64,000 nucleotides of DNA from contig OX359190.1 in the NCBI GenBank assembly GCA_947172415.1, positions 7,874,001-7,938,000 on the forward strand, written 5' to 3'. Shown in pieces: positions 12,304 to 41,516 of the stretch. The DNA is from Chondrosia reniformis (Eukaryota; Porifera; Demospongiae; Chondrillida; Chondrillidae). Below the pieces are notes generated by a model. The model saw nothing but the letters and a program-made list of their open reading frames with translations. It ran no database searches and was not told the DNA's origin. A program made the position numbers and the translations under genes. The number at the start of each line of letters is the position of its first letter. The first letter of the stretch is position 1.

Positions 12304-15116
12304 TCATATTTCTATCTGCTTCTTAGGATCCGTACTAGGGAGCTGAGGATCACCTATACCAAAGGTAGTCACTGATGGGGTGGATGGAGGATCTTCGGTG
12401 GAACCATATTTTCCCTTATTATCTGTTTTATCACTATCTTTGGACTCCTCTTTCCCCAGACTTTTCTTCTCCATTTCCGATTCTCCATTAGTGATACCAA
12501 ATGATGTTGTGGCCACATTATCTGGCTCTCCATTCTTAGCTTCCGGATCGCTAGATATAGGGTTCATCTGAACATCTTCGTCCTTGATGCTCTCCGCATC
12601 ATCATCCTGCTTTACACCAAGTCCCATTCCTTCAGTGCCACCAAGAGAGGATTTGACTGAGGTAGTAGCATAGAAGTTTGATTTAGCGGTTGAACGGGAA
12701 CCAAATGAAGCTAAAAGGAATCATAAAGTAAGAAGACTAAAGAGATATATGTAAACACTATACTATTAAAATAAAGAATACCTTTTCCTGTTGAACTTGT
12801 AGAGAGGATACCCTTAAAAGGAAGGAGGGATGTTAAAATAATATATACACATTTACACTATATATATGTTACATATGCTTTTATACGTAGCACAAATATC
12901 CAGTTGTTATAAATAGGATTAATTTTACCTTGTCACATTTGCACCAAGCCTTTATCTTTCCCCAAACCTTTTCATGCCTCAAGACATGAAGCACAAAGAT
13001 AAGGAAACCCTTTGATGCACAAAAATAGAAACTGTATAAGATAACTATCATGCAAGCTGACAGAAATGAAATGCACTGAAATGACAGCTGCATGGGATGA
13101 AAACTGATTATATATATACTATACCTGTAGTGAGTTAGCAACTATAAAGAGTATAGCAAATATTTGTCCTGCTTGACCTGGAGCTACAGCAAACAATCCA
13201 AGGACCCAAGTGAAACAGAATAACGGCAGCAAAATGATGATAGTCTTCAGTAGTTGTCTAATGAATATAGTAAAGGTTATCAAAGATTATTATTTACTTA
13301 ATTGTATGAACCACAGTGCTTTATGGGCAGGAAAGTGTGTTTGGTAATGAGGTGATCTTCTAATTCACAGACAAATGTTTTAATATGTAGATGTAGCATA
13401 CATTATCTCATTATGAAATGTATGTACTTACTTTCCAATAGCCTTCATGTTCGAACTATCTCCTTTTTTGAAATCTGCTTTCTTTCTACATTGATTCTTA
13501 GCTAATGAAGCCATACTTAGAAACAGCAGTACTGCATTCACCTACAAAGTGATACAATTGCATATGGGTGTACCATTTATGGACTGTAGACGTCTCACTG
13601 TAGCCTTACCACTACTATCAGTATCATAGGTCCAATGAAGGCCCAAATCACTCCAAGATGAGGAGGAAGCCAACAACTGTGTATATATAAGACATCCAGT
13701 TAATAGAGGAATACCATTATATAAATTAAGTATATTGTAGGATTGCATAGCTCACGCATGAATGTGTTCATAAAATGGATCACTTGTGTCAAAGGATGCT
13801 CTCCTGAAATAGACCTCGTGTCTAATGGCAACTGACACAACTACTGCTGGAATAGGCAGACCTTTGCAATAATGAGCCGGAATAGAAAAGATTGTTATAC
13901 ATATACATACATTCAAACATTTTTATAAACATTACCCCATCCAAGTGCAGTGTAAATGTAGATCCACTTCTTTTTATTAACTCCAAACACTTTAACAAGA
14001 AGGTTGTAGATGAGAACTCCTTCACAGAGTGACCAAGTGAACACTGATAGGAAGAAGTAGTGCATCAGAGCAGTCACTACTTTACAGACAGTCTAAACAG
14101 GCAGAAAAAGAATAGTTAACCCTTTATGCGCGAGATAATTACGTGGGCGTAATAATCACCAGAAGCGATATTTAATTGTCACGAGGACACCATGAGGCAG
14201 GAATTAAAATTCGTCACCTCGATAGGAATGTGGCAACTCTTTATGACGGTAAAACTTTGATGCCGATTTTTAGCCATATTTTGTTGCTCTATTGGCTTCT
14301 AAGATGCTCTTATTTTCGAGATATTACCTCTTTTAGTGAAGAAAGTAAGCACGGCTATGTTTTCTAAGTTTCTTCGGGTAAGAAGCTTTCTCTGACTATC
14401 TACGGAAGCCAATTCGGTCAGGAAGATCCCTGGTTATCCTTTTGTAACGGTATATTTTTATGTAGTCTTTTCAAAGCCCTAGAACATTGGAGAAGCGTCG
14501 TAGCCTCAAACAAATTGTTTACCAAACCGTCAAGTGAAGCGTGGCAAGCAGAATAAGGCGCACAAATAAACCACCGCCTTTAGTCTTTGTATCGCCAACA
14601 TTTCGGCTGCAGCAGTGTTATGTAGCTCTGTAAATTTTACTACAAAACGTCCATGGTATCTTTGACGCAAATATGCGTCTCTCGCTATTGAAGATACCTA
14701 ATTAATTGACGCAAATATGCGTCACTCGCGCATAAAGGGTTAATTAATCATCGCATCATAGAGATCATTTGTGTTCTTACTGGAACAGATGTAGCTGTGT
14801 CTACACCAGCCAGAAACACAACGAGACCCAGTGTCAATGCAATACACAAGTTTAAGTGTACATAATTGTGAACCTTTGTGATTAGTTCTTTCCTGAAAAT
14901 ACGATAAAGTATATGGATAACTTGGACGCCTGTTGAACATATAATATATTAAACAGATAGTAGGCAGTGTGTACAGTGCAATTTGTATAATATGTATATA
15001 TACACGAAATCTCACTTTAAACACAAGAAGAATATGATTGAGATTATCAAGAACAAAATAGATATTCCACATCCAATGTACGTCAGAATATCAAATGCTA
15101 ATGGTTCACCTAAAGT
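12304..15116 (-). other. GPCR-A seven-transmembrane block and cytoplasmic tail (exons 35-44)
   Basis: Exons: 15116-15016, 14892-14781, 14092-13936, 13861-13756, 13676-13610, 13541-13432, 13257-13125, 13009-12929, 12812-12782, 12710-12304. TM1 is in [20 protein letters not shown]2 in [19 protein letters not shown]3 in [22 protein letters not shown]4 in [21 protein letters not shown]5 in [22 protein letters not shown]6 in [21 protein letters not shown]7 in [20 protein letters not shown]. The TM3 cysteine (TVCK) and loop-2 cysteine (CWLPPHLG) form the usual pair. NSLQGFLIFV is the standard adhesion-GPCR TM7 signature. The tail is Ser/Asp/Glu/Lys-rich and ends KKQIEI. The intron between exons 36 and 37 holds a MITE absent from copy B. 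Confidence 0.9.
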
Positions 15117-18100
15117 CTACATGAATATAATATGTAAACATTTAAAATTGTCATAACTGATTGAAAATTAATTATCATACCAATTATATAATATATGTAC
15201 ACGTATATAGTATACGTATACTTACTGTATCCACCAGAGAAACTAGTACTACAAAACTGGTCAAATGAACAGTTTCACATGTAACTTGTGTTCCATTTTC
15301 AGTTTCAGTGAAGTTTAGTCTTGCTACTCCACTTCTAGACCATCCTCCAGTTCCCTTGTTAGCATCGGGATTCCAAAACACACAAGTGTACTCTCTCCTT
15401 TTACCAGAAGGCACTGGACCATTCAGTACCTCATCCTATACGGGTAAATATATGTACACCATATGTACATAATTATTATATGTAATTATGGTACTCTATG
15501 GTATACGTATATACCTTAACATTAAATTCAATGATGACTTTATCCGTAAAGTTTTCAGGTACACTTGGGAATTCTATGTCACCAATCTGACTGGAGACTA
15601 CAGGAGTACCTGGTACTATATTATCACCTTCTATCTCTTCTTCACCATCTCTATAGTAAATAACAATTTGATACATATAAATGTTGTGCTGTTTTAAGGA
15701 ACATTTTTCATTTCAACAACAAGTACTTACTGAAATTTTATTGGTAAATAATCCTCCATATTGTTCATTACAAAGTTGACTACAGTAGTAGTGTCTACAT
15801 CTTCTGAGGAAACAGACGGTGTTTCAGTTGTGGGTGCCACTGTAGAACCATCAGTTGGGGATGTAGTTGTAGGTTGATCCATTGGAAGGGACTCTTCTGA
15901 GAATTACATAACATACAAAGACGTAGTATGTATGTAATACTAAAGTTTAAACTAGAGCAGACAAATTACTACATAAATGACTAATGATAACCAAATACAG
16001 ACCTTGTTTTATTGCCATTTTGATGAAACTTGAGGGAATATTCAACTTTGGTATGAATTTTTGGTTATTAAAGTTAGATCTAAGAAGACTACCTGGAAAT
16101 AATATACCACCTGGACGTCTCAAATTAACCCTACTACCTTGAAAACCTGAAATAGAATATAACAGAAGTGGTAGTATTAAATGCAAAGGACATGAGAGAA
16201 TGTCATATCAAACATTCCTATCTTACCAAAATTAGGTCTAGTGAGTGTAATGGTTGGCTTTGAAGGTGTAAGAGCTCTACCAACACCATTAGCTATCCCC
16301 TCAGTTGTCCTCAGTATGGCTGCTGATTCAGTTGTCTGGTTAGCAACTGGTACTTCATTGGTAGCTGTAAAGGCTGCCTTATTATTTTCATCCAGTATAT
16401 TGCTCACAATATCAGCAATATTCTGTAGAAAATGTATAATATATTTTACTGTTTAATTAAATGTAAGTACATATGTTCATGAAATAAGGATATATCACGT
16501 AATTAAGGCATGCAATAGCCACAATTACCTCAATAGTTGCATTAGTTGCATTGCTGTCCGGATCAAAAAGGTTGTTGCTTTCACCCAATCTATATATTCA
16601 GAATAATATACAGAACATCCATATGTACATACGTAATACTTATCAATTGAAAAAGTCAAGCAAATGTATTTTTAATACAAATGCAAGTATTATAATATAC
16701 ATATGTATATATACTTGAGCATTCAAGCATAAATGTATCTACACAGTTATAGTGTTTTGTAATGTACTTGAAGCTAACTTCTCTATTTGTTGTAGTACAA
16801 AAGTAGTAGTTTTCAATTCACTTGGTAGGATAGTCTCATTTTCAACTGGTTCAGTAACAGTACTAAGTTGTGCTGTAATATCATCAACAACCTCCTTAGC
16901 TGTTTCAGTCAAAGGCTCATTGGTAGCATTAGATACATTCAGTGTGTTTACCAGAGATTCGGCCTATTTCATATGGAGAGATAACGGTACAGTATATGTA
17001 CGGTAGGCGTCAAAAAAAGTTAACGTTTCGTTTCGTTTATACGGTGTTTTGTTCCTACGAAAACTGTGTGAAGACGATACACAACGATTGATCGTCTTCA
17101 AAAAATGATCATCTGTACTTTCGAAAGCATGCGGAACGTTCTTGCGTAGGAACGCATGCATGTGAGAAACGCTTCGTGTTAATTATAGTACAATTGTCCA
17201 AGTATTTCACAAGTAAGCTAAACAAGTATCCACGTGTTTAACAGTAATTTACAACTTACGTCGGAATGCAAGCGATAGACGATTGATCGTTTTTATTCAT
17301 TTCGTAGGCCTATAATTAGGACGATCTAAAACGAATTGAAGACTAAGCCGAAACAAAACAGTACGCCGTTCTGGCTTAGTCTTAATGAACGAAACGTTAG
17401 CTTTTTTTGACGTCTACCGTATATGCATTTATTGAGAATATATATACATATACACAACTAATTGATTCTGCTTGCTAAACTGGTACAGTTGTACATGTAC
17501 CTCTAATATTATATTGTTGAATTCTTGAGAAGTACATGCAGTAACATCTACTTCACCCCAAGTCCTATCAGAATTGCACCTCCTTTCAGCAAGACCTATG
17601 TATGTAATAATAATTGGTTACATTTATATTTATACATACTATATATATTACGTACATTAATTGCTAAAGAACTGTATATGTACAGTACAATAGTATGTTA
17701 TTGCATACCAGTAACAGTTCTGCCTTCCCTTTGTGGACAACGCAGATGAGCTACTTCACCAGCAAACACTTCTGGCCACTCTAACTGCCATTCTTGATCA
17801 GTATTTGGTGGACATGTAATTTGACCTTCTTCAGCTATAGTTATCAAGAGTGCTTAATTGTCAAAATAATATTTTGTAATATGTACATAAAAGTAAATGC
17901 TCTTCAGACCAGAGTGTATGGATATAAACTTACGCTTATCACAGATTCCTGGCTTATTTTTACATTCATCCTACATTAAACGAACAAATACGGAATGATC
18001 ATTTTAAAGAAACTGCATTCAGCAGATTAGACATACAGACTACACAGGTGCATGTGCATACATATATATTTAGGTCAGTCATAAAGCATACATATTCATC

Positions 18101-21100
18101 CAACAGTAAATAACACAGATGTAAATATATGTACATACGTACGTACATACATACATTGCTATGTATAATAGGAGACTATGTACTAACTTCAGAGTCTGGT
18201 TTGCCATCTCCATCACTGTCAATTTCACAATTACCATGGCGGTTCCTCACAAATGGTGTTACACACTGTACATATGTTATATTCAATGTGTAAGTTATTC
18301 AGTCTTACTTGAACTCCTGTTATATACAACTCACCATACATCCTCGTTGCCCTGAACAGGTACATGATATACCAGTACCAATACATAAGCTCTGTCTACC
18401 TCCTAACGTCACTGGTGTACTTTCATTGCATGAGCAATCATCTATAAATAGTGTATCAATAATCTAAAATCCTATTAAGCTAAAGTAGATTATGTACGCA
18501 TACTCCACTGATTTTTCAAAGTTAGAATTATTGGAATTAGTCAATACTTCATACACATACATACATACATATATATAGTGATGCAAGCTAACAGATATAC
18601 TGCTATGTATGCAGCTGAGTCCATATATATATATACATACACCTTAGATCAGAACATGGAGTATTGCTCACTTGATGATGTGTATACAGTGGTATCCTCA
18701 GCTGGTTGAAATACTGCTGCTGTCACATTTTGAGTGAGAAATGTGACAATTGCAACAAAACTTGTGTTGTCTGGTGTTACAATTTTAATTGTATAATTCT
18801 GCTTGGTTACATTCTGGATTTGAAATAAAGGTAGGTCACATTGCGGGCTGATATTACATTTTTGTCATTGGGACCTATTTGTGACTCTATTAATAGTATA
18901 TTGCATGCATTCCAACTATATAACATGTATCTACTTGTATCAGTATTATTATAAACAATATATATAACTAGTGCATGTATTAGGTACTTTTAGAGATGTT
19001 TCAACTTCAACTTCAAAACTCTCTACATCTTTTCTACCACTCTCTGACACAACTACTACAATTTCATTCTCCTCCGTTCCATTCTTAAATGTACATCTGC
19101 TTATATCCACTGACTCCCACAGTCCTGGGACATTACATCTTCTAGTTGCTAGGGAACTTGAGAAGGAACTGTGGATCTCAGAACACTGTAAAGAGGCACT
19201 TTGACCAATAGCTGTTACAGGCCATGTAATATTTCCAATAGTCTCCTTCCGGCAGCATCCAATACAAGGATCCTATACGTATATGCATTTTATAAGTATA
19301 TATATATATATAGCAGAAATAGAAATATAATAATACTCCAATGATAATATATATGAATGATTTGCTAACTTTATAGTCTGCAATCTTATCACCATCGGTG
19401 TCCAAAGTGCATTCATCATCATCCATTAAATATCTCTCATTACACTAAAATCATATTGTATACACATATATTATATCAAAGAAAACTTCTATGGTATTAT
19501 AGAGAGCAACTATAGCATTCCAATATGGAGAATAGCCTAGCTATGTGTAGTAGATAAATATGATCATAAACACAGTACTAACTACATCTGTTTTTTCAAC
19601 TGAGCATTTGCAGGCTGATGTTGCTCCAGGTGATCCGACACAAAATGTTAAGGGACTAACTGATGATGTCACATTTATAATATTTTCACAACAACCACAT
19701 GAATCTAAGTAGTACAGCAGGAGCAATGAAAACCGATAATGCATTGCGTCCAGACAAAAATGAATATTTACACTAATTGTGTGATATATATATATAAACC
19801 AACCATTTGCTGATATAGCAACTACAATTCCAACTTCAGCTACTGGGGACATTGTATCTTCAATTACAATTACAGAATACACTCTGCCATTTTTGAGCTG
19901 TGAGGGCTACAGAGAATGTAAAGCATATATAGATACTTACAGCATAAGGATGATAACTGTATATATATATACTTCATCTTCACTAGGCACTGGATTTATA
20001 CTATAAAGCATCAGCTACCCTTGCTAATTATATATAAATCAAGGGATGTGATGGTTAAGCTAGTTTTAAACATCTTGCTATTTCACAGATGAAGACCTTT
20101 ATGTTTGAAATAAGTAAATTATTGACTCAGCTAAGTATAGCTATTAAATAAATTGACCAATAAATTCATATCACAATGAATACAACAAGTACACAACACT
20201 CCCTATACGTTTAGATACAATTTCATTGGGTTGGATTAAGTATTGACTCAGTCAAACTTACATATTTCCTAATGTTAGTATCTGTTGCTTCCAATAAGAT
20301 AATCTTGTTTGGAAACTCTCTGAATGTACATTGTGACAGGTCCAGTGACCCCCACTCTCCATCACTTCCACACCTTGCTGATATGATACCACTGTAGAGA
20401 AGATCACTGAGTGTGGAGCACCTCACAGTGCGAGTCTCACCAACCGGGGTGGAAGTGAAGATGAGAGTATTGGGGCAAGCTGCAATGTAAATGAAACATA
20501 TATGATTAGAATTTAATTGATACATTACCATACACACATTTAAAATGTAGGTAATTCTAAAATGTATTAATGTATTTTAAAATGTATTATCTGAGGAAAT
20601 TCTCATCAGTTACATGACAATATAGTTCAAACGTTAACATTATACTGTATATATACACCAATGTGTTGCCTAGTGACCATGTTCTTCTTCTGACCATATC
20701 ATGTCCTTCTGCAAACCACCAAATTATAGAAATACAAATGATTGATATAGTTACATTCTAACAATTCACAAAAGAGTTTACTAACAAAACATATTTCTAA
20801 GCATTGTTAATAATATTACATATCATACTGGTCAGGTAGTTTTAGATTATTCTTACTTCTAGGAAGAGGACTAGGAGTGAGTACTGCACTGCTTGATGGA
20901 ATAGAACTGCTTTCTGAGCTTGGAACTTCACTAGTTGTTACAACACTACTTCCATAACTCTCACTGCTTGTTGTATCTTGTGATATCTCAGAGGACGTGG
21001 GTTGCACAAAAGATGATGAAGGAGTTTCATTAGTCCCCAAGTTATCACTGGTTGTAGTTCCAATTACTACATACGAAAATACAGTTTCAAAATATTATGT

Positions 21101-24100
21101 ACACGTACATGTGATTAATATTTGACTGATTTATATAGTATTCTGAATAGAAGCATATATATACTATTGTGTTTAAAGAGAGTGAGTACTAGTTGACATA
21201 TGACCTATTGTATAAAGTACTAAAATAAAGTAGGTACGTACGTATATAAAACAGTATATATATACTTATACACAATATATAGCATATACACACATGATAC
21301 AGTGCAAGTTACAATATACTAAGGTAATATAAAATCAAGTATTACACAGTGCAATTTACTAAACAAGTGACCCCTATAAACAGTACAAGACTTTAGTCAC
21401 ACTGTTGCAGGCTTTGAAATCCTCAACTACTGCATAGAGAGTAGTAGTTGATACAGATCATCCAAGGTAGAACACATGGCCTACCAATTACCTTTTCACA
21501 TCTTAGCATAGAATGAAGATGATGCATCTGCATGCCATATATCAACAAAGGTATATAATATATATATAATTGTATAGGGGCATAGACTATACATATATAT
21601 AACAAAATCAAGCTAACAAGTTACTAAATAAAATGTGTGATAGTATACATACACACACAATTACAATGATGGAGGAATTGTTAATTAGATATCTTACTGT
21701 CAGGAATTGTTGTAAACATCACCATGACAGCATCAGGTCCAGTTCCATTACTATTAATAGCAGCTACAGTAAAACTGTATGTCACCCCAGCCATCAAATT
21801 ATCCAATGATATTTGAATTACTGCTCCAACTGTTCTTGTCATCTGACTTGATGGATCACTACTTAACTGGTACTTTATCAAATATCCAGTAATTACTCCA
21901 TTTTGGTCCTTCTCAGCTGGTGGGTTCCATGTTAAAATGGCTGCGTCTCGGGCTGGAACTGCTCTTAGATCAAGTGGAGGACCACTGGGAACTTGAAAAT
22001 GTATTGGAAACTTAAATATTAAACAAGATTTTAGTGAAATACCATATAAATTATAATTATGGTTTATCTTTACTGGCATTCTAATTTTAAACTGTAGCAT
22101 TTATGGAACAAGAACATATACAGTGTCACTTGAGAGAAGGTAGTACAATATACATATATATAAGCATTTAAAATACTCACCTGCTGAAGGCATTCTTATA
22201 GCATCCATGTTAGAATTACAGGAATCTTCTCCATTTGAAGATGTACATTCAACAGTGTAATTAACATAAGGACTTAAACCATCCACTGTATACTGTAACA
22301 CTGTGCCAGTTACAGTCTTTGGAGACAGACCACTCACAGTTGTAGATATAATACACTTGTAAGTAAGAGAAGATGATCTAGCTGGTGCAGTGAGTGTGAT
22401 GAGGAGTTGTGTTGAGGAACTGGCTGACAGTGAAGATATTGAAGGAGCTATACGTATATATTAGGAGATAGAAACAGTAGATATTCAGAATTCATAACAC
22501 CTGTTCTGACCATATTCAGGTGATGATTTTATACATTGAGCCTATATACATACCTATAGTACAGGTATATACATAGATAGATAAATAGCAGCTAATTCAT
22601 CTATATAGGCTTGTACTATAGGTATAACCGTATGCTATGAGTATACTTCTAAATCTCTTAGGCATTATATATATTTTTACAAACACCTACGTACGTACGT
22701 ATGTATATATTTTATGACAATACAGTGAAAATATTGTAGTAGTACCCATTTCATCACGTCTTCACTATGCATACAGTGATACTGTATATATATCCAAAAA
22801 TGATATTTTTTGTACAGTCTATAAAGTCAGACATTTTACTGAAGAAAATCCCTATATACGTATATACGTAGGTAAAGACTGATCCACAACACTCCATCAA
22901 AGAGGCTAAAAGGTCAATTATATTAAAATCATAATTCTAATTAAATCTTATTTTCATTAATACTACGTATTTTTCATAAACACTCATCCTATAAAAACCT
23001 TGTGGTCTAGTTCTTCCTGTTCCTGTCACTTCTCCTCCATCTCCCAAGTCATTGAAAGCTACTACTCTCACTGTGTACTGTGTGTTTACTGTTAGACTAC
23101 TCAATGTAGTAGTCGTAGTAGTTCTAATGGAATGTATTAATGTACCATCTCTATACACTTTATACTTGACTGGTAGTCCTCCAGTATTAGATGGTGCTGT
23201 CCAAGTAACCATCAGTTGGTCACATGATCCAGATGGAGGAGATATCATGAGGTTAGTGGGAACACCTGGAACTTGATATACAATATCATGAAAAGAGAAT
23301 GTCAGCCATTTAATAAACATTAAATATTAATACCTGTAAACGTTGTCACGCTGACAGTATTACTCCATGCTCCGTTTCCCAAATCAGACACAGCTCTCAC
23401 TCTCACTTGATACAGTGTGCCAAGTTGGAGATTCTCTATAGTAACCATTCTTGTGTTACCAGTTGAGGTCCTCTCCATCCATCTACCTCTAGTTCCATTC
23501 CTGTACTGTATCTTATAACTAGTGATGGGACGATCACTTGATGGAGCATTCCAAGTTACTTGAAGAGATGGTTTGTTTGAAGTGACTGTCCTAGTTACTT
23601 GATTGGTAGTCAGCGATACCTTATTTGGAACTACAAAAAGAATATTCAAATTGTTTTTCATGATCACTTCAAATTAACTTGCTTATATACATACATAACA
23701 GAGATCTTTGTTCATCGAAATATATATATATAGTTGTATGCATACCATTTAACGTTGTTCTGCTAATAGTATCACTCCATGCTCCATCTCCTAAATCAGA
23801 CACAGCTCTCACTCTCACTTGATACATTGTCCCAAGTTGGAGATTCTCTATAGTAACCATTCTAGTGTTACCAGTTGAGGTCCTCTCCATCCATCTACCT
23901 CTAGTTCCATTCCTGTACTGTATCTTATAACTAGTGATGGTACGATCACTTGATGGAGCACTCCAAGTTACTTGAAGAGATGGTTTGTTTGAAGTGACTG
24001 TCCTAGTTACTTGATTGGTAGTCAATGATACCTTATTTGGAACTACAGACAGAATAGTATAGAGTATACCAATATCTAATACCTAAAAATGTTGTTTTTA

Positions 24101-27100: not shown

Positions 27101-30100
27101 CTCATGGGGCACCTGGTGCCCCCAAACTCGAACTACTTGCTGGTTCTTAGATGTCCGGTTAACTGATTCAGAACGTCGCTTGAATGCCATCAATTTCTCA
27201 TAAAAACGTTTTTGCTCAAGCTTTACGTTACATAGTATTTGTAAAGGTGGTTTCTAAATCCTTTACATTGGTTCAATGTTTGACGTAAAGGAAGAGAAAG
27301 CTAATTTTAAGCTAGTGTAATCGTGTGCACAGTCTCGACTTCTATCAGCTGTCACGATTAGAAATAGTACGAAAGTTGTCACGAACGCCACACAGATCGA
27401 CTCAAGATCACTTTTTTGCAATCATAATAAGAGCAACTACAATACAGGGTACAAGCACTCTATATACATTATAGAATGTTCTAGACTGGCCACATAGATA
27501 ATTGGTTACAGTTCCATTATAGCTTAATCTAGGGCTGACTTAATCACCCCCTCTTTTCTGAGAATACGTATTGGGTACCAAGTTTCCTGAATCCCTATAT
27601 TGACTCGGTGGCCGTCTAATCCTGGTAGGGTACCTTGGACTTGACAGAGCTCCATTGGCAAGTTCTGTAACTACTTCAGCAGCTTGTATTTGAGAGGTAA
27701 GTTCCGTATCCTGTGATTCTACTAGATGTAAATCTGTCCCAATAGCCTTAAGCTTAGTAGGTGGGGAATTGTTCGTGTTCTCGCAATCCTCACCTGGAGT
27801 TTGTGGTATAACTTCAGACATCGATGTTGGTTGCTTACAGGACTTTAAACGGTTGAAATGTACCACTTTACGTTTTCCACGTCTCTCAATATCATGAATC
27901 CTATAGGTAGTTTCTGCCAGCCTTTTGATGACCTCATAAGGCCCTGTACAGGGATAATGGAGTTTCTTTCCCTCATGACCCTTGCACACTGTGGAATGTA
28001 GCCATACTAGGTTTCCCGGCTGGTAGGGCTCTCCATGCACTTTCTGGTTATATAACTGATGTTGTAATTCTTGCTTAGTTTGTAGCGTCTTAGTGACATG
28101 ACTGTAAGCTTGTCAAAGTCTATCCTTCAGTTGGATCACATAACCTGCGGGGGAACGAGCTGTCTCTCTATCAGTCCCTAGGACAAGATCTAGCGGCATT
28201 CTGGCTAGCCTCCCAAACATCAGCTCAAATGGTGAATATCCTGTGGAGGCATGCACACTGGTATTGTATGCAAAGTACACCTTTTTCAAGTGGTTTTCCC
28301 AATCAAACGGGTGTTCCTTACAAGTAGCTGACAGCATGTCCACAAGAGTTCTGTTAAATCTCTCAACCTGACGGTCAAATTGCGGGTGATACGGTGTAGT
28401 CCTTGTCTTCTCTATCTGCAGCAACTTGCACACCTCTGTCATAACACTGCTCTCGAACTGTCTGCCCTGATCAGAATGGATTTGGTCAGGTATAGCAAAT
28501 CTGCAAAAGAATTCATCTACTAATCTCTGAGCAATCGTTTTAGCTTCCTGGTCCGGAATAGCAAAACACTCCACCCACTTGGTATAATAGTCCGCCACAA
28601 CAAGTATGTAGCAATTTTTCTGTTCGCTCTCAGGGAATGGCTCAGTAATATCCATTGCTACCATTTCTAGAGGATAGCCCACTCAGATGGACTGCAAGGG
28701 GGCCCTCCTTTTGGGTAGTGGGCCTTTCCGAGTAGAGCAATTGTTGCAGGCCTGGCAGTAGTTATAGAATCTTTCCAGTAACCAGGCCAGTAGAACCTTT
28801 CTTTGATACGACTGTGAGTCTTCTCTGCACCAAGATGACCCCCAAGTGCTCCGCTGTGAAACTTCGCAACTATCTTGCACCTATGAGAGAAGGGCACCAC
28901 TAGTTGCAAGCCATAATGCTTTCCATCCTTGTCTTCGTACTGTCTCCAGAGTAGGCCATCTTTCACCACCAACTGATCCCAAAGTTGGACAAGTCTTTTA
29001 GCTTCAAGGCACTTACCCTTAATATTTTTAGCTGGCGGGTTCTCTCCTCTCTCCTTGGCCTGCAGCACGTGACCGATCCCTACGTCCCTTAATTGACTCT
29101 GCCTCAACTCCTCTCTAGAGATTCTGGGCAAAACAGTGGCTATGTCCCCTTCCCCTTGAATCAGCAATGCTTGCGATCAGAGTGGATTTGGCTCTCCCTC
29201 CCGATTCGCTGTGAGATTCCTCAGGCATTCTTGACAAGGCGTCTGTGTTTCCATGCTTCTTACCTGCTCTGTGAACAATCTGGAAGTTGTACTCATCCAA
29301 TCATTCCAACCACCTAGCGAGTTGGCCCTCAGGATTTTGGAAGTTCTTTAACCAAGTGTGAGATCCATGATCCGTTCGCACAGTGAATTTCTTCCCTAGT
29401 AGATAGGGTCTGAAGTGGTGAAGAAACGTGACCACAGCCAAGAGTTCCTTCCTAGTAACTGAATACTTCCTCTCAGGTTTATTAAGGACACGACTAGCAT
29501 AAGCAACAACTGATTCTCCCCTCTCCCCTACTTGTGAGAGCACTGCATCTATACCCACATTGCTGGCATCCGTGTCAAGAATGAATTCCTTTGAAAAGTA
29601 CGGAAAGGCCAAAACTGGAGCGGTCGCTAGCTTATTCTTAAGCTCTGTGAAAGCCTCCTCGCAGCTTTCTGTCCATCTAAATTCTTTATTCTTCTCTGTC
29701 AGCTGGTAGAGGGGTTTGGCAACAGAAGCATAGCTCTGGATAAACCTACGATAATAGTTACAGAGACCCAAAAACTGCTGCACTTCACGGCTATTCCTTG
29801 GAGTAGGCCAGTTTTTAACTGCTTCAGGGTTTGTGGCAATTCCCTTCTGTGATACTATGTGACCCAAGAAATGAACCTCCTCCTGAAAAAGAAAGCACTT
29901 TAATGGTTTCAACTTCAATCCCGCTTCTTGCAGTCTCTGGAATACTTCTCGCATATTATTGAGATGTTCCTGAACAGTCCTCCCTACAATGATGACATCA
30001 TCCAGATAGACAAGACAACTCTTCCAGTGCAGGCCTGGTAAAACACACTCAATTAACCTCTGGAAGGTTGCTGGTGTGTTACATAAGCCAAAAGGCATGA

Positions 30101-33100
30101 TGCTAAACTCAAATAATCCTTCTGGTGTGCACACTGCTGTCTTTTCCTTGTCATCAGGGTGGACTTCAACTTGCCAATAGCCGGTCTGAAGAAAAGATTG
30201 AAGAACCTGCCAACGTATCCAGCAATTCGTCTATCCTAGTAATAGGGTAGGCATCTTTCCTGGTGATTGCGTTCACTTTCCTGTAGTCAATGCAAAATCT
30301 CATCTTTCTTCCTGACAAGCACCAGAGGTGAGGCCCAGGGACTAGTGGACGGTTGAATTACACCTCTTTTAAGCATGTCTTGTACTTCTTTCCTGACTGC
30401 TCCCCTTCGCTCCACTGGTACTCTCCTAACTGGCTGGCGGATACGGGGATGGCTCCCAGTGTCAATTCTGTGTTTGACCTTGGTGGTCCTGCCCATGTCT
30501 TTATTTGAACTGGCAAAGACAGCTCGGTGCTCCTTCAGTAGAGTGAGAGCTTGTCCCTTCTCATCTGGTGTCATCCTCTCAAGGCATCCCTTGAGAATTT
30601 CCTCCAAATCCAGGTCCTCTCCTGACCCTGTCGCCATTTGACTGGTGGATGCTTGGCCATACATAGCTGGCAATATGTCCTGTTTTCCCACATCGATGGC
30701 AACGGATACTGGACTTGCTTGCACTTGGTTTCCCCTACTCTTTGTTCTCAGTAGCCACTCTGCTGTCCTTTCTTGAGAGGGAATCCAACTTCTTCTCCAC
30801 TGTGTCCAGCCTGGTCATCAGACTTTGGAGTAGGCTGAGCATAGCATCCTGGTGAGCATTATCAGTTCCAGCGGTTCCCTCCCCATTACTGGGGCAACTC
30901 TGGGCGCTTTTGGGCAGCAAATATGATTCCATTTCTAGAGTTGAACTAACTGCTTCATCTAATGTCTTTGGCCTTCTCTGTTTCACGCCAAATGCCAGCT
31001 GTTGATTATCCAATTGGCCCAGGTAATGTGTCAGTGAAAGTTGCTCCTTCGCATCCTCTTGCAGATCTGGGTAGGCTTTGTTGACTAAAAACTTGAGATC
31101 CTCGGCGAATGTGGCCCAATCCTAACCTCGCTTCTTCTTCCTGGCCAACAGTTCTGCAAGATAAAGTTCCCGTTTGCTACTGGGATCAAAACATTCTTTA
31201 GTGCATCCAACCAACGGCTAAAATCGTCCTTGGCTCCCTCAGGCACTCGCCTCAACGCTGTGGCAGTTCTGCCTACCAGGCGAACCCGTAGCCAAAGTTG
31301 CTCTTGTTTGCTCCAGTGGTTAACGGCAGCGACACTAAAGAAGTGCTTGACCCAATCTCCCCAGTTCCCTTCACCGTTGAAGGTCTCCGGCAACACAACA
31401 GGCCTCACAGGAGGATTGTCCTGTCTCCTAGGTGCAACGTGTTCTGCTGCTTCCTCTGCCATCGTTTCGACTCAGCTGATCCTGCCGACTACGCCAATGT
31501 AATCGTGTGCACAGTCTCGACTTCTATCAGCTGTCACGATTAGAAATAGTACGAAAGTAGTCACGAACGCCACACAGATCGACTCAAGATCACTTTTTTG
31601 CAATCATAATAAGAGCAACTACAATACAGGGTACAAGCACTCTATATACATTATAGAATGTTCTAGACTGGCCACATAGATAATTGGTTACAGTTTCATT
31701 ATAGCTTAATCTAGGGCTGACTACACTAGGAAACGAGCATCCACCATTTTGTTGATATAAATATATGCATGGTTACGAACAGGAAGCCATACTTAACCTA
31801 ATTTCTGAAAACAATATAAAGGCACCTTTGACGCCCAAATACGTAATTTAATGTTTAATAAATACTTCAAGTGTCAAGAAAACAACATCAAAAACAGACT
31901 GTACCCAAGACTTCTTATATGCTCTTTACTTCTTATCAATTAAAGGGTCACCTATTTAGTAAACTATAGTCAGTACTACTGCAGTTCCAGTCCAATTAAA
32001 GCCCATCATACTAGTTTCCACTAACCTCCTCATCTATGAAACTATTTCCTTGTGAAATGGAAATGTCAGCTATAGCTTGCTGTCCAACAACTGTTAGGCT
32101 CAAAGTTGTGTCATTCTTAAAGACACCATCAATTATTGTACCAAGTGTATTACCACGAACAAAGATAGCTATCCCATAAGGCTCCTCACATGGCAACAAG
32201 ATCATTGTCATGGATATAGGAAAGCTGAAATAGGTCATATTACATTCTAGTATAGTACAATTGTCACTTTTGGTACATCTTCCACTGAGTTCAGAGTCGG
32301 CAAGTTTGTCAGAAATGTCGTCTAAGGAATTACACATGTCTTCTTTTGATACTGAAATTGGATAAGACGTTGGTAAGATGGTTCCAGATGGCGAAGGCTG
32401 TGTTGCAGCTAGAGTAAGAGAGGGCATGGGTGAGGTTGGGGAGTGTGAGGTTGGGGAGGGTGAGGTTGGGGAGGGTGGTACAGCAGTCAGTCCTGTCAGA
32501 TGATGGTTGAGGCATTTCTGAAGCTGAGGATATGGAGGGTGTAGCATATGAAATACTGCCAGAAAGTATATTGTAAAAGGCCTCTTTATGTTGCAAAACA
32601 CCTCTGATACACTAGTAGTAAATATATAGTAAATAAACACATATAAAAGAAATTAGACCAATTACGTGATCATTTTCTACGTATATATTCTGTCAGTTTA
32701 GGTGAGCTTTACGAACACTTTGCCATTTTATCTTTCTCTGCTGTGGTTAGGAGGGTGACCCGGAAAGGACCACCTTCACGCCTGCAGTAGTAACAGTCTA
32801 ATGTATGGCTGTACATAAATATCATTTTTCACACACTATATATGTAGAACCTATGTGGGTACTATTACTGCTGAGATAGAGTATAATTTAATCATATACT
32901 TATAACCACACACAATGGATACACATACAAATCACTTTTACATATATAGGATATACCTATGTAGATGATTATTTACTAATGAAGTGATAATCAAACCACA
33001 AGTAATCATTAAGTAAAGAGGAAAAACAGAAAAGAAGCAATTGCTGGGAATGTTATGACAACCAGAGCTCCGCTACTGAGCTACAAGTACACAGCAATAC

Positions 33101-36100
33101 TCTGTTCAAGATGAAATGATACATCAGTTTGTATAGCATTTTCTCTAAACAGTGCAGTAAACGTTAGGGCTACAAGGAGCCCACGAGTGCAATTGTTATG
33201 ACTAAAGATCTAATTAAAGAGAAAATGGAATGTTTAATTTAAAAATTAAATGCATAAGCTTCAATTAGTAATTTATTATATACGTAAGGAAAACTGATGT
33301 ATATGTAAATACATTGAAAGTGGTCAAATTATGTAATGACTGTCATTGATTATCTAATTCTTAGATTAGCAGATAACAGATGAAATACGTTATCAATTGC
33401 CAATTAAACAGAGAACTAATTGTACAATTACTGTGCCATTAAATTATACATTTAAAGACTATATGCCTTCCATATAAGGATATATTGACTTGCTAGATTA
33501 CATATGAAATTACTCAGCAGATAAATTTATATATCAACTCTTGACACTCAACTACAGTACATGTATATATAAAAATTAAACTGTGAAACATCAATAGATG
33601 ATGCTCTCCATATCAATTTCACCACCCTCTAACCACTTGAGCGGTATATTGTTATTTAATGACTAAACAACCAAATTGTGTACCGATATATAGAAACCAC
33701 TGAAAGTGAAAGTGACAGTGACATTCAGATGTACAATAATATTATGTAGTTGACTGTTTATGGTTTACAGGCAGCTTCAGGAAATGGAAGGAATGGTAAC
33801 TACCATTACCATAGAAACCCAATGTAGATTACAAGATACACCATTAGTCAACAAGGGCAAATAAAAGATATATAAAGGTATGTTTATCACTTTTCAGTTA
33901 TTTCAATAGCAATCCCTGCTTTATAACTAAATATTGATAAAAGTAACCCATTTAATGCATGGATATTCATAGAAACATTAAGCCAATAAGTGTACTGCAA
34001 ATTGATTTGAATCCAGTGTCCAAGGTGTTTGGATAAGTGATCATGAAATAGTCCAGAAAAGTGAAGGAACCTGTGAACATCAATCAATCAATCAATTCAT
34101 CATGCAGCTCATCTCCTCAGTAGGAGGTTGCTGTTACATACAGTAAAAATACTTAAAATTTTATCTAATTCAGTTACTATAGGAATATAGACTGTTCTCC
34201 ATAATAATATAAGTGTGTTCTCTCCATCTCTTCCTTGGCCATCCTCTTGGTCATTTACCACACACCTCTTCCTCAAACCCTCTTCTCACCAACCTCTCCT
34301 GCGGCATTTCCTCAATCTTCTTCCTCCACTCCTTCTTCTTCCTATCTGCCACTTCTAAAACTGCTTCAACCCCTAGCCTTCTTCTAATGTCTTCATTTGC
34401 TAATCTGTCCATTCTGGTCACACCTTCTACTCTCCTAAGGTACCTCATCTCCATTGCCTGGATCTTACTTCTGTGTCTTCTCTGTAGGGTCCACGTCTCA
34501 CTCCCATACAGCAAAGTTGGTACAACCATGGCATTGATAACTCTTAGCTTTGTAGCTTTGCTCAACTCTTTGTGTTCAATAACTTCACTTCTTAATGCCC
34601 CCACTATTCTCGCTGCTGCCCCCTATTCTGTTCTCAATCTCATGATCGCATGATCCTTCCTCATTAAACATGGCCCCCAAATATTTTGCTGTCTGCACTC
34701 CTTCCACCTCTACTCCATCTACGACTATGTGACATGTGCCACCTCCCCTCTGCACTATTGGTATTCTCCCAGTTTATCTTCATCTTCCACTTTGTCGTTA
34801 CTTCATTGAGCACTTCAACATTTCTTTTCATGTCCTTGTCCTTTTCGGTCACTAACGCTAGGTCATCTACAAACATCAGAAAATGCTTCCAACTGCACAC
34901 CACCCTGGTAACTCTCCCTTGCCTTCCTCACTATGTTGTCCAAAAATAGGTTAAAAGGCCAAGGAGATAATGTACACCCCTGTCTCACCCCTCTCTCTAC
35001 GCCAAACCAGTCTGAATTTTACCCTGTATCCGTACACATGCTTCACTTCTTAAGTACAGAGACTTCACTGCTTCTTTCAGCCTTCCCTTGACACCATATC
35101 TCTCTACCACCAGCCATAGCAACTCCCTATTCACTCTGTCAAAGGCCTTTTCTAGGTCTACACATACCATGATCATTGTTTTGTTTTACTCAATTATCTC
35201 CTCCCCGAGTTGTCTCACTATAAAAAACTGATCAATGCAGCTTCTTTGCCTCCGGAATGTACCCTGTTCTTCTATACTATCTCTTCAATGATGGCTCGTA
35301 TCCTCTTATCTAATACAGTAGTGTACACCTTCCTCGAACACTTAGGAGGCTAATCCAATATTTCAGTTTACCCTCTTTAGTAGTTAACCTTTCACTCCTC
35401 AGTCTACTCTCCTAGAGCTTAGAGCACTCACAAAACATTACATGTTCCTAGCCTATATATTGTTCTTTCGTTTCCAAAGCACGCTGGCATCCTTGCTGCT
35501 CCATGCAGTGGGCTGTCAAATGGTAGACAATTTACCCGACACGGAGGACTACTGCTCCACCATTTTTTCACACTTTTTACTTTGCACAAATGCTCCTGTG
35601 AACATACTAATTAATACACAAATACAAACAGTACTAATTTGCCACCAAGCTAATTACATCACTGACTTAGCCAAGTACGACATAACAAAATGGCTGCTGT
35701 TATGATAATTGAGGGTCAGGTTAATTGAGGTAAAGATAATTGAGGAAACACTGTACTGACAAACTATACTAGTTGTATTCTCATTCGTATGTACGTACGT
35801 AGCCCTACAATTAATAAGTCACACAGGAATAACATCAAGTTGCACTCCTACGTAACTACTGTAGCAGTTAATAAATGAAGTCTTTGCATAATATACAATT
35901 AATGTTTCAGTTAATTGGTACATATTGAAGGAGCAAGTTGCCTAGGGTAACAGAATGAAGAGGAAATGTTTTACTTGATATCTGTTAAACAGTAACAAAT
36001 GACTATTAGGTTCAAAAGATTGAAAGAAAATGTGCTAAGGTTCACTTGGACAGAATACAGATATACGTAGGATAACTAGTCTGTTAAAAAGAGGTTCCAA

Positions 36101-38634
36101 ACATCATTCAGAAGCTATTTACATATGAAGGATATGCAAAAAGCTTTTCATATCACTAAAGTTAACAAACCTGTGACAGTCTGACAGAGGTAGTCTCCAT
36201 ATCCAAATGGACATGTACACACTCCATCATTACAGGTTCCTCCATTTTGACACACAATGTCATCACAGGTCACTAAAAGGATAAGTTAAGTAATATATAT
36301 GTATATGTATGTATGTATGTATTACTTGTGATGTGCAACAGCTTGCAATTACAACATATACAGTTTCTGAAGCCCCTCAGCTTTAAAATGGAGGGGCTTC
36401 AGAAGCATAAAAGTAGGTACAAAGTATAGGTGTGGTTTGATTATCACTTTAATTACTTATTCATTTTTATGTGATATATGGTGGCCAGTGACTAATTGGT
36501 TAAGATGGCCCCTCACATGTACTAGAATGGGCTGGGTCTCTCATAATCAGCTTGTTCTGATAAATAAAATCACCACTGATCAGTGTGAATGGCAACTACG
36601 TAATTATCTACTTTGTAGTTAGTATGAATGGAACATTGCTGTGGTAATTATAGCTCAGTGGCAGAGCACTAGTGGTCATAATCATATGTCCTGAATTTGA
36701 TTCCCCGCAATTGGTTTTTCCCTTTTTATTACTTGTGGTTTGATTATCACTTTAATTATTCATAGGAAGGGCCTTATGACTGGTATGTTCATGAAATGCT
36801 GTAAATTGGTCAGTTGGATTCAGATTTGGTAGTTTGCAAAACAGTTACTACAGTGTTGTGACAGTATCAAGGAACGATAAATCTAAAACACTTTTCATTA
36901 TTGAGGTGAGATGCATAGGACATGACTACAAATACCTACTTACCGACACACTCCACTCCAGCATCATCAGAGTGATCACAATTCTCAATACCCACTCCTG
37001 GATGAGTACAGTTAAATAGATCTGGCTCACTTCCATCACACTTGAGATTATCCAACCAGATAGGACCTGATCCTTCTCCAAAATAGGCTAATTTGTGTGC
37101 AGTGACAGCTCCACTGCTGAATCCAAGTTGTCTGCAGACTACATCTGCATCTGCAAGACTCCAAAAGTCATCACATACTGTGCCCCATGTTGAGTTGTGG
37201 TACACTTCCACACGACCAGTAGAATAACCATTACCATCAACAAGACGAACTGGAACTGTTACATGTATAAAGTTCGTAATCACTGAATATAAATAAACTT
37301 TTGTTTCTACAAACCTGTTACAATCTGGCACAGAAATCCATCATAGCCAAATGTACAATTACAATGTCCTTCAATACATACCGCTCCATTCTGACAGACA
37401 ATGTCATCACAGGTCACTGCAATAAGGAAATTTCCCATTTCTACTTCAATATATAATCTTCTATCAAAGTCCTTATGTATTGTCTTTTGAAAATGCTAAA
37501 GACCCATGGAGTTGAAATGTCATAACCAAAGGTTTTAACAAACTGTATCTTTTTGCAAAGAATCAAAGATGAACTTCCAAGAAGATACAAGCTGAAGACA
37601 TCCATCCTTACATAATATAGCCTTGTTGGATTTTTATTCCAAAAGGGGTTAAATAAAAGAAATATTGAGAAGCCTTCCAAATAATGCAAATGTGATATTT
37701 ACATACAGTACTATGCCATTATTATTATTATGAAAATCTTAGTCAATATAGTTATCATTGCTCTTAGTTATAAACAAACAAAAGAATCATATGCTGAGTG
37801 CAAGATGAGATATTGGTCACAATATGTATTGAATCACATTATGTTTGTAGTTAGGCAGAATAGGGACAATGCAGGACTTACCGACACACTCCACTCCAGC
37901 ATCATCAGAGTGATCACAATTCTCAATACCCACTCCTGGATGAGTACAGTTAAATAAATCTGGCTCACTTCCATCACACATGAGGTTATCCAACCAGATA
38001 GGACCTGATCCTTCTCCAAAATAGGCTGACTTGTGTGCAGTGACAGCTCCACTGCTGAATCCAAGTTGTCTGCAGACTACATCTGCATCTGCAAGACTCC
38101 AAAAGTCATCACACACTGTGCCCCATGTTGAGTTATGGTACACTTCCACACGACCAGTAGAATAACCATTACCATCAACAAGACGAACTGGAACTGTGGA
38201 AAAATTGAATAGAATAGAATTGAATTGAATTGAATTGTATAAAATTGAAATGAATTTGATTTTTAACTACTTTGTATATGTGTCTTAATAGTAGCCATTG
38301 AACTTTCCCAATGAAATTAAGAAGCATTTAATTCACTTAATTCACTTCAATTCATGATTCAATTCAAGACGTATTGGTTGTTTCGAGGAAAAACAAGAAC
38401 GGAAACATAGCCTCCTGCAAGTAGTGTTGCATACGAATACAGGAATATTCGTAAAATAAAATTGCTAGCTTTACGAACGGCTTGTTAGTAACCACATATT
38501 TGAAACGTTAGTTGTTGAAAAGCATAATATTTTGTAATACATACACGCTCACCATCTCCGACAGCTTGGTGTAGTCCCATTCCTGCAAGATACCCCACAA
38601 TAATTGACAAGAGTAAGCACTTCGAATTCATCAT
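12304..38634 (-). CDS. Giant adhesion G-protein-coupled receptor, copy A (complete, 44 exons)
   Basis: Reading 38634 down to 12304, 44 exons join in phase to about 8.38 kb of coding sequence (about 2,793 residues). Order: signal peptide, SRCR, EGF, SRCR, EGF, two copies of an unrecognised Cys/beta module each followed by a Ser/Thr/Pro linker, six FN3 domains, a Ser/Thr linker, three hormone-receptor-motif-like segments with Cys-rich and DxDGD segments, GAIN with GPS (HL/T cleavage site), seven TM helices and an acidic cytoplasmic tail. Adhesion GPCRs self-cleave at the GPS and signal through a tethered agonist after adhesion or force; that is family knowledge. Most extracellular exons are symmetrical phase 1-1, typical of exon shuffling. 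Intron 6 carries an LTR retroelement. I know no named orthologue. The block entries below give the exons. The gene call is firm; single splice sites are by eye. Confidence 0.88.
14120..14739. mobile_element. piggyBac-type MITE in a GPCR-A intron
   Basis: A 620-bp insertion flanked by TTAA on both sides (14116-14119 and 14740-14743). Terminal inverted repeats: CCCTTTATGCGCGAG at the left and its reverse complement at the right. The subterminal motif GACGCAAATATGCGTC occurs twice near the right end. Unit B has the empty site with a single TTAA (50729-50732). TTAA targeting with CCC-start ends is the piggyBac pattern. There is no transposase frame, so it was moved in trans. Confidence 0.85.
15226..16963 (-). 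other. GPCR-A GAIN domain with GPS cleavage motif (exons 28-34)
   Basis: Exons: 16963-16743, 16589-16529, 16422-16227, 16146-16003, 15896-15731, 15650-15515, 15435-15226. The N-terminal part is helical and Thr-rich ([32 protein letters not shown]). A Thr/Ser/Pro insert ([18 protein letters not shown]) follows. The last exon has the [11 protein letters not shown], then [13 protein letters not shown], then [16 protein letters not shown]. The HL/T scissile site is intact. Two of the four usual GPS cysteines are replaced (SGV instead of GC; CET instead of CxC). Confidence 0.85.
16997..17421. mobile_element. TA-flanked MITE in a GPCR-A intron
   Basis: About 425 bp. Ends CGGTAGGCGTCAAAAAAAG and the inverse CTTTTTTTGACGTCTACCG, with TA on both sides, as in Tc1/mariner-type insertions. 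An internal inverted repeat includes the CGATTGATCGT motif. The same element sits at the same place in unit B (52989-53421), so it predates the duplication. No transposase frame. Confidence 0.65.
17501..21066 (-). other. GPCR-A Ser/Thr linker and HRM / Cys-rich / DxDGD modules (exons 16-27)
   Basis: Exons: 21066-20857, 20479-20262, 19906-19804, 19704-19586, 19444-19370, 19272-18988, 18813-18672, 18441-18335, 18265-18188, 17970-17934, 17834-17709, 17595-17501. Exon 16 is a Ser/Thr-rich stalk. Three hormone-receptor-motif-like segments follow: one with [23 protein letters not shown]; one with [22 protein letters not shown]; one with [22 protein letters not shown]. Between them a composite unit occurs twice: a Cys-rich segment (DSCGCC... 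/ NDCSCN...), then an acidic calcium-type segment ([14 protein letters not shown] / [14 protein letters not shown], thrombospondin type-3-like), then a short DPCIGC / [10 protein letters not shown] segment, then the HRM. The internal duplication is clear from exon order. The HRM assignment is by pattern. Confidence 0.75.
21299..21545. repeat. Partial ACAGTGCAAGTT-family element in a GPCR-A intron
   Basis: Starts ACAGTGCAAGTTACAATATA and includes the family's TTTGAAATCCTCAACTACTG segment. The right end is missing. Its duplicate in unit B lies at 57233-57490. Confidence 0.55.
21698..24569 (-). other. GPCR-A six fibronectin type III domains (exons 10-15)
   Basis: Exons: 24569-24240, 24042-23746, 23630-23334, 23271-22999, 22447-22181, 21991-21698. 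Each domain is one phase 1-1 exon. Typical FN3 landmarks: [40 protein letters not shown] for strand B-C tryptophans, and [36 protein letters not shown] for strand F. Exons 11 and 12 (both 297 nt) are nearly identical, marking a recent tandem exon duplication. Exon 14 is a shorter FN3-like domain with cysteines (KCII, ECTSS, DSC). Confidence 0.9.
25491..26205 (-). other. GPCR-A exon 9: end of Cys/beta module 2 plus mucin-like linker
   Basis: A 715-nt exon with phase 0 in and phase 1 out. It starts [20 protein letters not shown], the last strands of the Cys/beta module, then 29 perfect 7-residue repeats SSATPST / SSATPSI / SSAAPSI, then YGLEF before the donor at 25490. The linker is Ser/Thr/Pro-rich and should be heavily O-glycosylated and extended. 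The same DNA reads open in other frames on both strands because its unit is 21 bp; those frames are not genes. Confidence 0.8.
25507..26117 (-). repeat. 21-bp coding minisatellite, about 29 units (unit A)
   Basis: The plus strand repeats GGAGGGTGTAGCTGAGGATA plus one base, with C/T and A/G variants. It encodes the 7-residue Ser/Thr/Pro repeat of GPCR exon 9 on the minus strand. The equivalent array in unit B has about 9 units. Confidence 0.9.
26336..26396. repeat. Short palindrome in GPCR-A intron 8
   Basis: TGTTCATCTTATAGTACATG pairs with CATGTACTGTAAGATGAACA across an AT-rich loop (one or two mismatches). The same palindrome is at 62303-62363 in unit B. Probably a tiny hairpin element. Confidence 0.6.
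26429..26991 (-). other. GPCR-A exons 7-8: end of Cys/beta module 1 with linker, start of module 2
   Basis: Exon 7 (26991 to 26856, or to 26898) starts [20 protein letters not shown] and FMFCEMP, then Ser/Thr/Pro repeats. The repeats contain two in-phase CAG/GTAAGC donors, after 26898 and after 26856, which differ by exactly two 21-bp units. Exon 8 (26790-26429) starts [17 protein letters not shown] and carries module 2: [11 protein letters not shown], then [28 protein letters not shown] and [11 protein letters not shown]. It ends in phase 0. The intron using the 26856 donor is 65 nt. Confidence 0.75.
27316..31725 (-). mobile_element. LTR retroelement, Ty3/gypsy type, broken, in GPCR-A intron 6
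   Basis: A fossil LTR element in minus orientation. The LTRs are 31498-31725 and 27316-27546 (about 230 bp, TG...CA), flanked by the 4-bp target duplication CTAG. A primer-binding-like site beginning TGG adjoins the right LTR and a purine-rich tract adjoins the left LTR. Recognisable parts, in order: a gag-like region, reverse transcriptase, RNase H and integrase; that order places it in Ty3/gypsy. It is broken in several places. The two LTRs differ by only a couple of substitutions plus a small terminal difference, so insertion was fairly recent. Unit B has the same element at the same site. Confidence 0.85.
32026..32492 (-). other. GPCR-A exon 6: Ser/Thr/Pro stalk and Cys/beta module 1
   Basis: A 467-nt exon joined in phase 1 to the EGF exon at 36171 and in phase 0 to exon 7 beyond the LTR element. 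It starts [20 protein letters not shown] and continues to [44 protein letters not shown] and ADISI. This is the first copy of the same module as in exon 8. The phase match shows that the LTR element lies within one gene, not between two. Confidence 0.8.
32976..33100 (-). mobile_element. tRNA-derived SINE, copy 1
   Basis: The minus strand reads GTAGCTCAGTAGCGGAGC (A-box-like) and later ends ACTTGTGGTTTGATTATCAC. It matches the element at 36635-36764 through most of its length. In GPCR-A intron 5. Confidence 0.6.
34200..35400 (-). mobile_element. Non-LTR retrotransposon (LINE) reverse-transcriptase fragment
   Basis: Read on the minus strand, pieces of a LINE polymerase appear in order: [30 protein letters not shown], the catalytic box [12 protein letters not shown] near 34870, then [15 protein letters not shown] and [15 protein letters not shown] near 34450-34530. 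The 5' half with the endonuclease is missing, and the frame is interrupted by stops and shifts, so it is dead. It lies in GPCR-A intron 5. Clade not assigned; the YGSETW-type C-terminus is common to several LINE clades. Confidence 0.75.
36365..36402. repeat. Short hairpin in GPCR-A intron 4-5 flank
   Basis: CTGAAGCCCCTC pairs with GAGGGGCTTCAG around a short AT-rich loop. It lies upstream of the EGF exon on the plus-strand map. No function assigned. Confidence 0.5.
36635..36764 (+). mobile_element. tRNA-derived SINE, copy 2
   Basis: TATAGCTCAGTGGCAGAGCA resembles a tRNA A box and TTTGATTCCCCGC a B box, followed by a short body and a tail ACTTGTGGTTTGATTATCAC. Matches the inverted copy at 32976-33100. 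Not a functional tRNA: there is no acceptor stem. Confidence 0.6.
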
Positions 38635-41280: not shown

Positions 41281-41516
41281 GCATGAAGACACTCAAGAGC
41301 ACTCAACTTAAGGCAAAACCGTGATACTCCTAACAATTCATGAGGGCAGGATCCATGGCAAATAGGTTGCTGCTATATGTTAAGTATGGTTTGATATACA
41401 GTCTACTAATGACATCCATATTAGTACAGAGTGTATACAAGGGTCCACACCTCTTAGCCAAAACACAATTATGTAACCCCATTTTGCTTTTAGGGGGCTT
41501 CCCCTTAATAATATTT

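Follow-up and report, generated by a model that had tools for sequence, protein, structure and literature searches.

The window, a stretch of 64,000 nucleotides from the demosponge Chondrosia reniformis (assembly GCA_947172415.1, contig OX359190.1, positions 7,874,001 to 7,938,000), carries on its minus strand a curated model of 44 GT-AG exons running from 38634 to 12304, which encodes 2,788 amino acids with a single terminal stop and none internal. The receptor exons were settled by eye after gene-finder runs gave three genes or extra tiny exons. The extent (12304-38634), minus strand and 44 exons given in a preliminary description were reproduced, and its identification of an adhesion GPCR and of the domain order was correct, as the Pfam search of the conceptual protein agrees. 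A second copy of the gene (copy B) enters the window upstream of the complete one (copy A); the preliminary description mentioned neither this copy nor the intronic transposons. In the order of transcription, the features are as follows.

48407-64000, minus strand: copy B, from exon M1b (63004) to the stop (48947), running off the window
38553-38634, minus strand: exon 1, start and signal peptide (27 residues; has a hydrophobic core)
37882-38193, minus strand: SRCR1 exon (Pfam SRCR; PDB matches CD163 (M130) and others)
37315-37416, minus strand: EGF-like 1 exon (under all Pfam EGF cut-offs)
36944-37255, minus strand: SRCR2 exon (Pfam SRCR; 7/312 bases differ from SRCR1)
36171-36272, minus strand: EGF-like 2 exon (EGF_2 24.7 bits, cut-off 22.1)
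34251-34927, minus strand: reverse-transcriptase fragment in the EGF2-M1 intron (RVT_1 2e-11; 33.0-36.1 kb scanned)
32026-32492, minus strand: exon a of module M1 with a P/S/T linker (34% identity with its M2 equivalent)
27308-31722, minus strand: Gypsy-type LTR element in the internal intron of M1 (RT, RNase H and integrase domains)
26856-26991, minus strand: exon b of module M1 with an S/T linker (of 1,966 ORFs in the window, joint best match to M2b apart from M2b itself)
26429-26790, minus strand: module M2 exon a (similarity to M1a; fold model)
25491-26205, minus strand: module M2 exon b and mucin-like array of 29 units of 21 bp (S+T+P 68%)
24240-24569, 23746-24042, 23334-23630, 22999-23271, 22181-22447 and 21698-21991, minus strand: six FN3 exons, phase 1-1
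20857-21066, minus strand: S/T-rich linker exon (gene model)
20262-20479, minus strand: HRM1 exon (HRM 27.5 bits)
19370-19906, minus strand: cassette 1, with beta (19804-19906), Cys-rich (19583-19704) and DxDGD (19370-19444) exons
18988-19272, minus strand: HRM2 exon (HRM 35.4 bits)
17934-18813, minus strand: cassette 2, with beta (18672-18813), Cys-rich (18335-18441) and DxDGD (18188-18265 and 17934-17970) exons
17501-17852, minus strand: HRM3, two exons, adjoining GAIN (HRM 31.4 bits)
15515-16963, minus strand: GAIN domain, exons G1-G6 (GAIN 8.9e-08)
15226-15435, minus strand: GPS exon with HL^TSFVVLVSL, that is, the HLT triad and predicted tethered agonist (GPS 3.9e-10)
12929-15116, minus strand: seven-transmembrane domain, eight exons (7tm_2 1.5e-48)
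14116-14739, no strand assigned: inverted-repeat element of about 620 bp, flanked by TTAA, in the TM2-TM3 intron, copy A only
12304-12812, minus strand: cytoplasmic tail, two exons, 145 residues, ending in KQIEI and the stop

The features of an adhesion GPCR (class B2) are found in the 7tm_2 domain (1.5e-48) and in the GAIN domain (8.9e-08) with its GPS (3.9e-10), and about 2,350 residues with adhesion modules lie ahead of TM1; the presence of GAIN and GPS places the protein outside the secretin receptor family. The closest solved relatives of the GAIN-7TM part were ADGRL3 (1.4e-43) and ADGRD1 (3.4e-43). The predicted tethered agonist is present as sequence after the HXS/T site (HL^TSFVVLVSL), and the GPS, which reads C-VFW ... 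GWSRSGV, keeps the HLT together with the nearby Phe and Gly when aligned to ADGRL3, while the Cys of the Gly-Cys pair and the second Cys of CxC in ADGRL3 are replaced by Val and Thr in both copies. Autoproteolysis at the GPS is common but not universal among adhesion GPCRs. The joint loss of the two cysteines suggests residues that normally pair with each other. In the available text of one study, the Gly-Cys bridge was reported in all human GAIN domains and, in its discussion, in most adhesion GPCR GAIN domains; HXS/T alone was reported to be insufficient for efficient cleavage, and some uncleaved adhesion GPCRs still signal (PMC13062082). Because two cysteines are lost and HXS/T alone is insufficient, cleavage at this GPS may fail.

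At the other end of the protein, the two SRCR domains (3.3e-63) make it a member of the SRCR superfamily. Of the SRCR-EGF-SRCR-EGF order described previously, both SRCR domains and the second EGF pass Pfam, but the first EGF stays under every EGF cut-off. In the region 36944-38193, the two SRCR exons differ at 7/312 bases and their EGF partners at 26/102, and the near identity of the SRCR exons suggests gene conversion or recent exon copying.

The stalk between the tip and the core is built from repeated exons. Pfam recovered fn3 six times (4.3e-67), as the preliminary description had it, but FN3-5 taken alone reached 24.2 bits against 25, just under the cut-off, in single-domain tests that left out FN3-2, -3 and -4. 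The three segments previously called HRM-like have become HRMs proper, each alone exceeding the Pfam cut-off of 26.2 bits. The DxDGD stretches stay short of thrombospondin type 3 repeats, the better of the two scoring 16.3 bits with TSP_3 against 25. From the HRM1 exon through beta and Cys-rich to DxDGD, the phases at the exon ends run 0, 1, 0, 0, the next four exons repeat them identically, and the two cassette units outside HRM align better than 1,000 of 1,000 shuffles (z 4.2); we read the HRM/beta/Cys-rich/DxDGD exons as a duplicated cassette followed by a third HRM. The position of HRM3 directly before GAIN is the usual one (PMC12716839, in the part available), while its distance to TM1, about 380 residues, compares with the 280-330 given there. 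The protein contains 33 N-glycosylation sequons. Gain and loss of whole FN3 exons (phase 1-1) and of 21-bp units in the array would alter the length of the stalk, with unequal exchange as the probable mechanism. As a separate observation on the array (25491-26205), the splice donor CAG|GTAAGC can arise from its unit TCCTCAG...; a donor of this kind within the array is apparently the one used by copy B, and changes in the array can shift the exon end in frame.

Module M, a cysteine module previously noted as an unrecognised module in two copies, was borne out as such, since neither Pfam (nothing up to E 1), NCBIfam (nothing up to 0.1) nor the PDB sequences (best E 0.21, with M2) yielded a significant match. 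Among the 1,966 window ORFs compared with M2b, M1b scored 60, tied with its copy-B counterpart, while the best unrelated ORFs, two copies of one inverted repeat, reached 47 and, between M2a and EGF2, the next-best minus-strand ORF reached 32; the 47-scoring match (ORFs at 8450 and 10705) was judged on inspection to be chance. Similarly, a minus-strand ORF at 44252-44605 with M-like cysteine spacing (hmmsearch E 0.07) was not accepted as a third module. Searches of viral contigs with the module M alignment, the doubtful 44252 row included, gave 20 pattern matches and no relative, and searches of bacterial and archaeal contigs with M1a and both M2a sequences gave 18 and no relative. The fold model of M2 exon a (pLDDT 74.8; four other models 53-60) had 303 Foldseek matches listed at E 10 or better, none of the 303 at 0.001; as the input to this model was 3 sequences and it is limited to exon a, we make no claim of a new fold.

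Mobile elements have entered the gene at several points. The terminal repeats of the Gypsy element (27308-27540 and 31490-31722) differ at 5/233 bases, and the 3' LTR is common to both copies with 2 differences between them, so the element was probably present before A and B parted. The element at 14116-14739, with inverted ends CCCTTTATGCG and a TTAA duplication, has an empty site in copy B; we take it to resemble a piggyBac-type MITE. Elsewhere in the window there are a minus-strand collagen gene at 6255-7655 (Pfam collagen 7e-15), whose truncated counterpart is seen in pieces at 47762-48408, and a plus-strand ORF at 46821-47225 with weak likeness to a GBF1 TPR region (E 0.0019, under cut-off), the surroundings of which are duplicated at 3499-5095. 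As well, an inverted repeat (8086-8547 and 10712-11167, 98% alike) contains no recognised gene, and two tandem arrays lie upstream of the receptor, at 40742-41280 (38 bp x 14) and 41515-41749 (30 bp x 7.8).

Whether the tip belongs to the same gene as the core was weighed on several kinds of evidence. The preliminary description had considered 44 in-phase joins very improbable by chance; the joins are indeed in phase, but the splice sites were chosen, so compatibility is partly built in, and phase-compatible joining alone is weak evidence for a single gene. A trained gene finder that was free to split returned one 44-exon chain to 12304 with a score of 668; the plus strand scored 141, the reversed sequence 20 and block shuffles (n=5) 25.5-54.6. 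In this control the parameters were trained on these same exons, and transposon stretches were masked in the real run only. Compared with the curated model, 40/44 exons were identical, the TM7 exon was missed, an exon at 21403-21429 was extra, and the start and the TM4 and TM5 edges were placed differently. In a run with generic splice matrices, one gene reached from the signal peptide and the SRCR side through M1 and M2 as far as FN3-4, with EGF1 missed, and the rest was divided into two more genes. By the trained matrices, weak sites include the M1a acceptor (0.0), which makes the SRCR-side link, and the donors of HRM2 (-0.9) and TM4 (-0.1); the TM7 exon has a coding score of -4.9.

Across the Gypsy element the link is firmer. 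A phase-0 intron divides both M1 and M2 at matching points, and the halves of M1 flank the element; because M1 and M2 share this internal intron and M1b resembles M2b, the element is read as having interrupted module M1, and the flanking exons as belonging together in one gene. The link from EGF2 to M1a appears less secure. The alternative here is that SRCR-EGF-SRCR-EGF forms a separate gene for a secreted or truncated protein, with the receptor starting at or after M1. It would be compatible with the 3.7 kb length of the EGF2-M1a intron and the reverse-transcriptase fragment within it, with the weak M1a acceptor, and with the 5' part of copy B falling outside the window; moreover, read-through of the EGF2 donor meets a stop within a dozen codons, so that a short secreted form could arise via intron retention. 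On the other side, the EGF2 exon end and the M1a exon start are both in phase 1, the gene finders able to split made no split between EGF2 and M1a, and a receptor starting at M1 would be left without a good signal peptide, as one weak candidate with a phase-1 donor is the sole one between 32.5 and 36.2 kb. Separate genes for the SRCR/EGF and the FN3-7TM exons are thus considered unlikely, and a secreted or truncated SRCR-EGF gene improbable; the exons are probably best explained, with fairly good confidence, by a single gene for a giant SRCR-tipped adhesion GPCR with tethered-agonist signalling.

Copy B (48407-64000) aligned to 11783-27987 in several pieces at 93-96% and holds 38/38 overlapping exons, with projected lengths equal modulo three in 36/38 and an AG acceptor in 37/38. 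It is open for 2,301 aa after three choices made by hand, namely an earlier donor in the array, inclusion of the additional FN3 unit, and moving the G5 acceptor, which is TG as projected, by 3 bases. Copy B has seven FN3s, owing to a repeated exon-plus-intron unit of 410 bp, against six in copy A, and 11 of the 21-bp array units against 29. With the array and FN3-2 stretches left out, divergence between the copies is 2.3% for exonic and 2.4% for intronic sequence. In sums that leave out M1b, M2b with the VNTR, FN3-2 and G5, dN/dS was 0.62 over 1,872 codons (41 synonymous and 79 nonsynonymous changes, which are small counts), with 0.18 for GAIN plus GPS, 0.38 for 7TM, 0.80 for HRM1, 0.90 for the tail, and 1.21 across five FN3s, of which one is unchanged. 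The core had 17 synonymous and 16 nonsynonymous changes against 19 and 51 in the ectodomain (Fisher p = 0.026), a contrast picked after the counts were seen and leaving out M2a (2 synonymous, 3 nonsynonymous) and the tail (3 and 9). In a separate observation, 592 aligned bases at 16514-17106 are identical in A and B while the surrounding 500-base windows differ by 0.4% to 3.8%, and this stretch is possibly a conversion tract.

It has to be considered that A and B are two haplotypes of one gene put in tandem by the assembler and not paralogues. The levels of divergence in exons and introns would fit two haplotypes, and the differences are of an allele-like kind (a single transposon insertion, the length of the array, and an FN3 unit more or less). 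Evidence pointing to paralogues is indecisive: divergence is uneven, from 0 to 6.6% per 500-base window, and the flank outside the gene aligns in only five gapped pieces at 84-96%, which include the truncated collagen counterpart near copy B. Misassembled haplotypes therefore have a sizeable chance of being the explanation, somewhat short of even.

The receptor shares the GAIN-GPS-7TM core with ADGRL3, ADGRD1 and ADGRE5, and with ADGRL3 the HLT motif and CWL, IW.FIGP, TW..GL and NSLQG; it differs from all three in its ectodomain, and ADGRL3's two GPS cysteines are Val and Thr here. CD163 (M130), CD5L and DMBT1 resemble it in SRCR domain sequence and are not known to have a 7TM signalling core. 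The preliminary description's surprise at an SRCR-bearing adhesion GPCR was overstated, as the Amphimedon receptors Aq712029 and Aq715659, also adhesion-type 7TM proteins, were described in 2014 as carrying multiple SRCR repeats, which the authors believed to be the first such report (Krishnan et al. 2014, PMC4302439). In the part of that paper available, HRM is given for at least eight Amphimedon adhesion receptors, and EGF, fn3 and GPS are among the Figure 4 domains, and this part mentions neither multiple HRMs per receptor nor SRCR, EGF, FN3 and HRM combined (PMC4302439). Moreover, 7tm_2 is among the top five SRCR-accompanying domains of A. planci (PMC10855680, Table 1, in the part available). 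Choanoflagellate and filasterean HRM-GAIN-7TM receptors likewise have HRM directly before GAIN, but here the HRMs are repeated upstream in the cassette and SRCR is present, a domain with no mention in the available main text of that source (PMC12716839). In the paper texts searched, figures and supplements being outside the scope, no adhesion GPCR with several HRMs was found, and none of the literature searched named a receptor with both several HRMs and SRCR. SRCR on an adhesion GPCR was thus already known from sponges, while the combination, the HRM cassette and module M appear, within the texts searched, to be additions.

From its parts, the protein is likely an SRCR-tipped contact sensor signalling via a tethered agonist. 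The SRCR tip would bind a surface or particle, be it a microbe, matrix or a neighbouring cell, and the long glycosylated FN3 stalk would carry force to GAIN. Force or binding would then change the GAIN domain, releasing or exposing the tethered agonist TSFVVLVSL, upon which the 7TM core would signal through G proteins.

What the tip recognises may be argued in more than one way. Recognition of sponge cells (aggregation factor or self) and not of microbes is suggested by the putative Geodia aggregation receptor, which is an SRCR/SCR protein (PMC4557014, as partly available), and by FN3 and HRM1 changing faster than the core, with FN3 number varying. Against this, the available parts of two studies show sponge SRCR genes responding to microbes too (PMC6208332, PMC11229196), and one adhesion GPCR of A. 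aerophoba was up after microbial elicitors, unlike in D. avara, where GPCRs went down (PMC6208332); in H. panicea, no GPCR was among the LPS-changed genes reported in the part available (PMC8242945). Cell recognition in place of microbial recognition is possible, if on balance doubtful. A receptor mainly for peptide hormones, with HRMs binding peptides as in secretin receptors, would agree with three HRMs above the cut-off and with the peptide binding reported for the secretin receptor HRM (PMC12716839, as partly available), but GAIN and GPS set the protein apart from secretin receptors, and HRM is common in adhesion GPCRs, where its function was described as unclear in the available texts (PMC4302439, PMC12716839); such a hormone receptor has very little probability. 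Returning to the SRCR-tipped contact sensor, a class of sponge pattern- or self-recognition adhesion GPCRs may be proposed very tentatively, and with low confidence, in which an SRCR tip and module M would sit on a length-tunable FN3/mucin stalk, with an HRM-multiplying cassette, a constrained GAIN-7TM core, and a GPS working or held uncleaved without the disulfide.

The gene offers a testable case of repeated HRMs, an unnamed module and variable stalk length, and the missing GPS cysteines are a natural test of the need for them in cleavage. If this reading is true, the joining of immune-type recognition to a tethered-agonist GPCR would let an early-branching animal couple recognition at its surface directly to signalling by G proteins.
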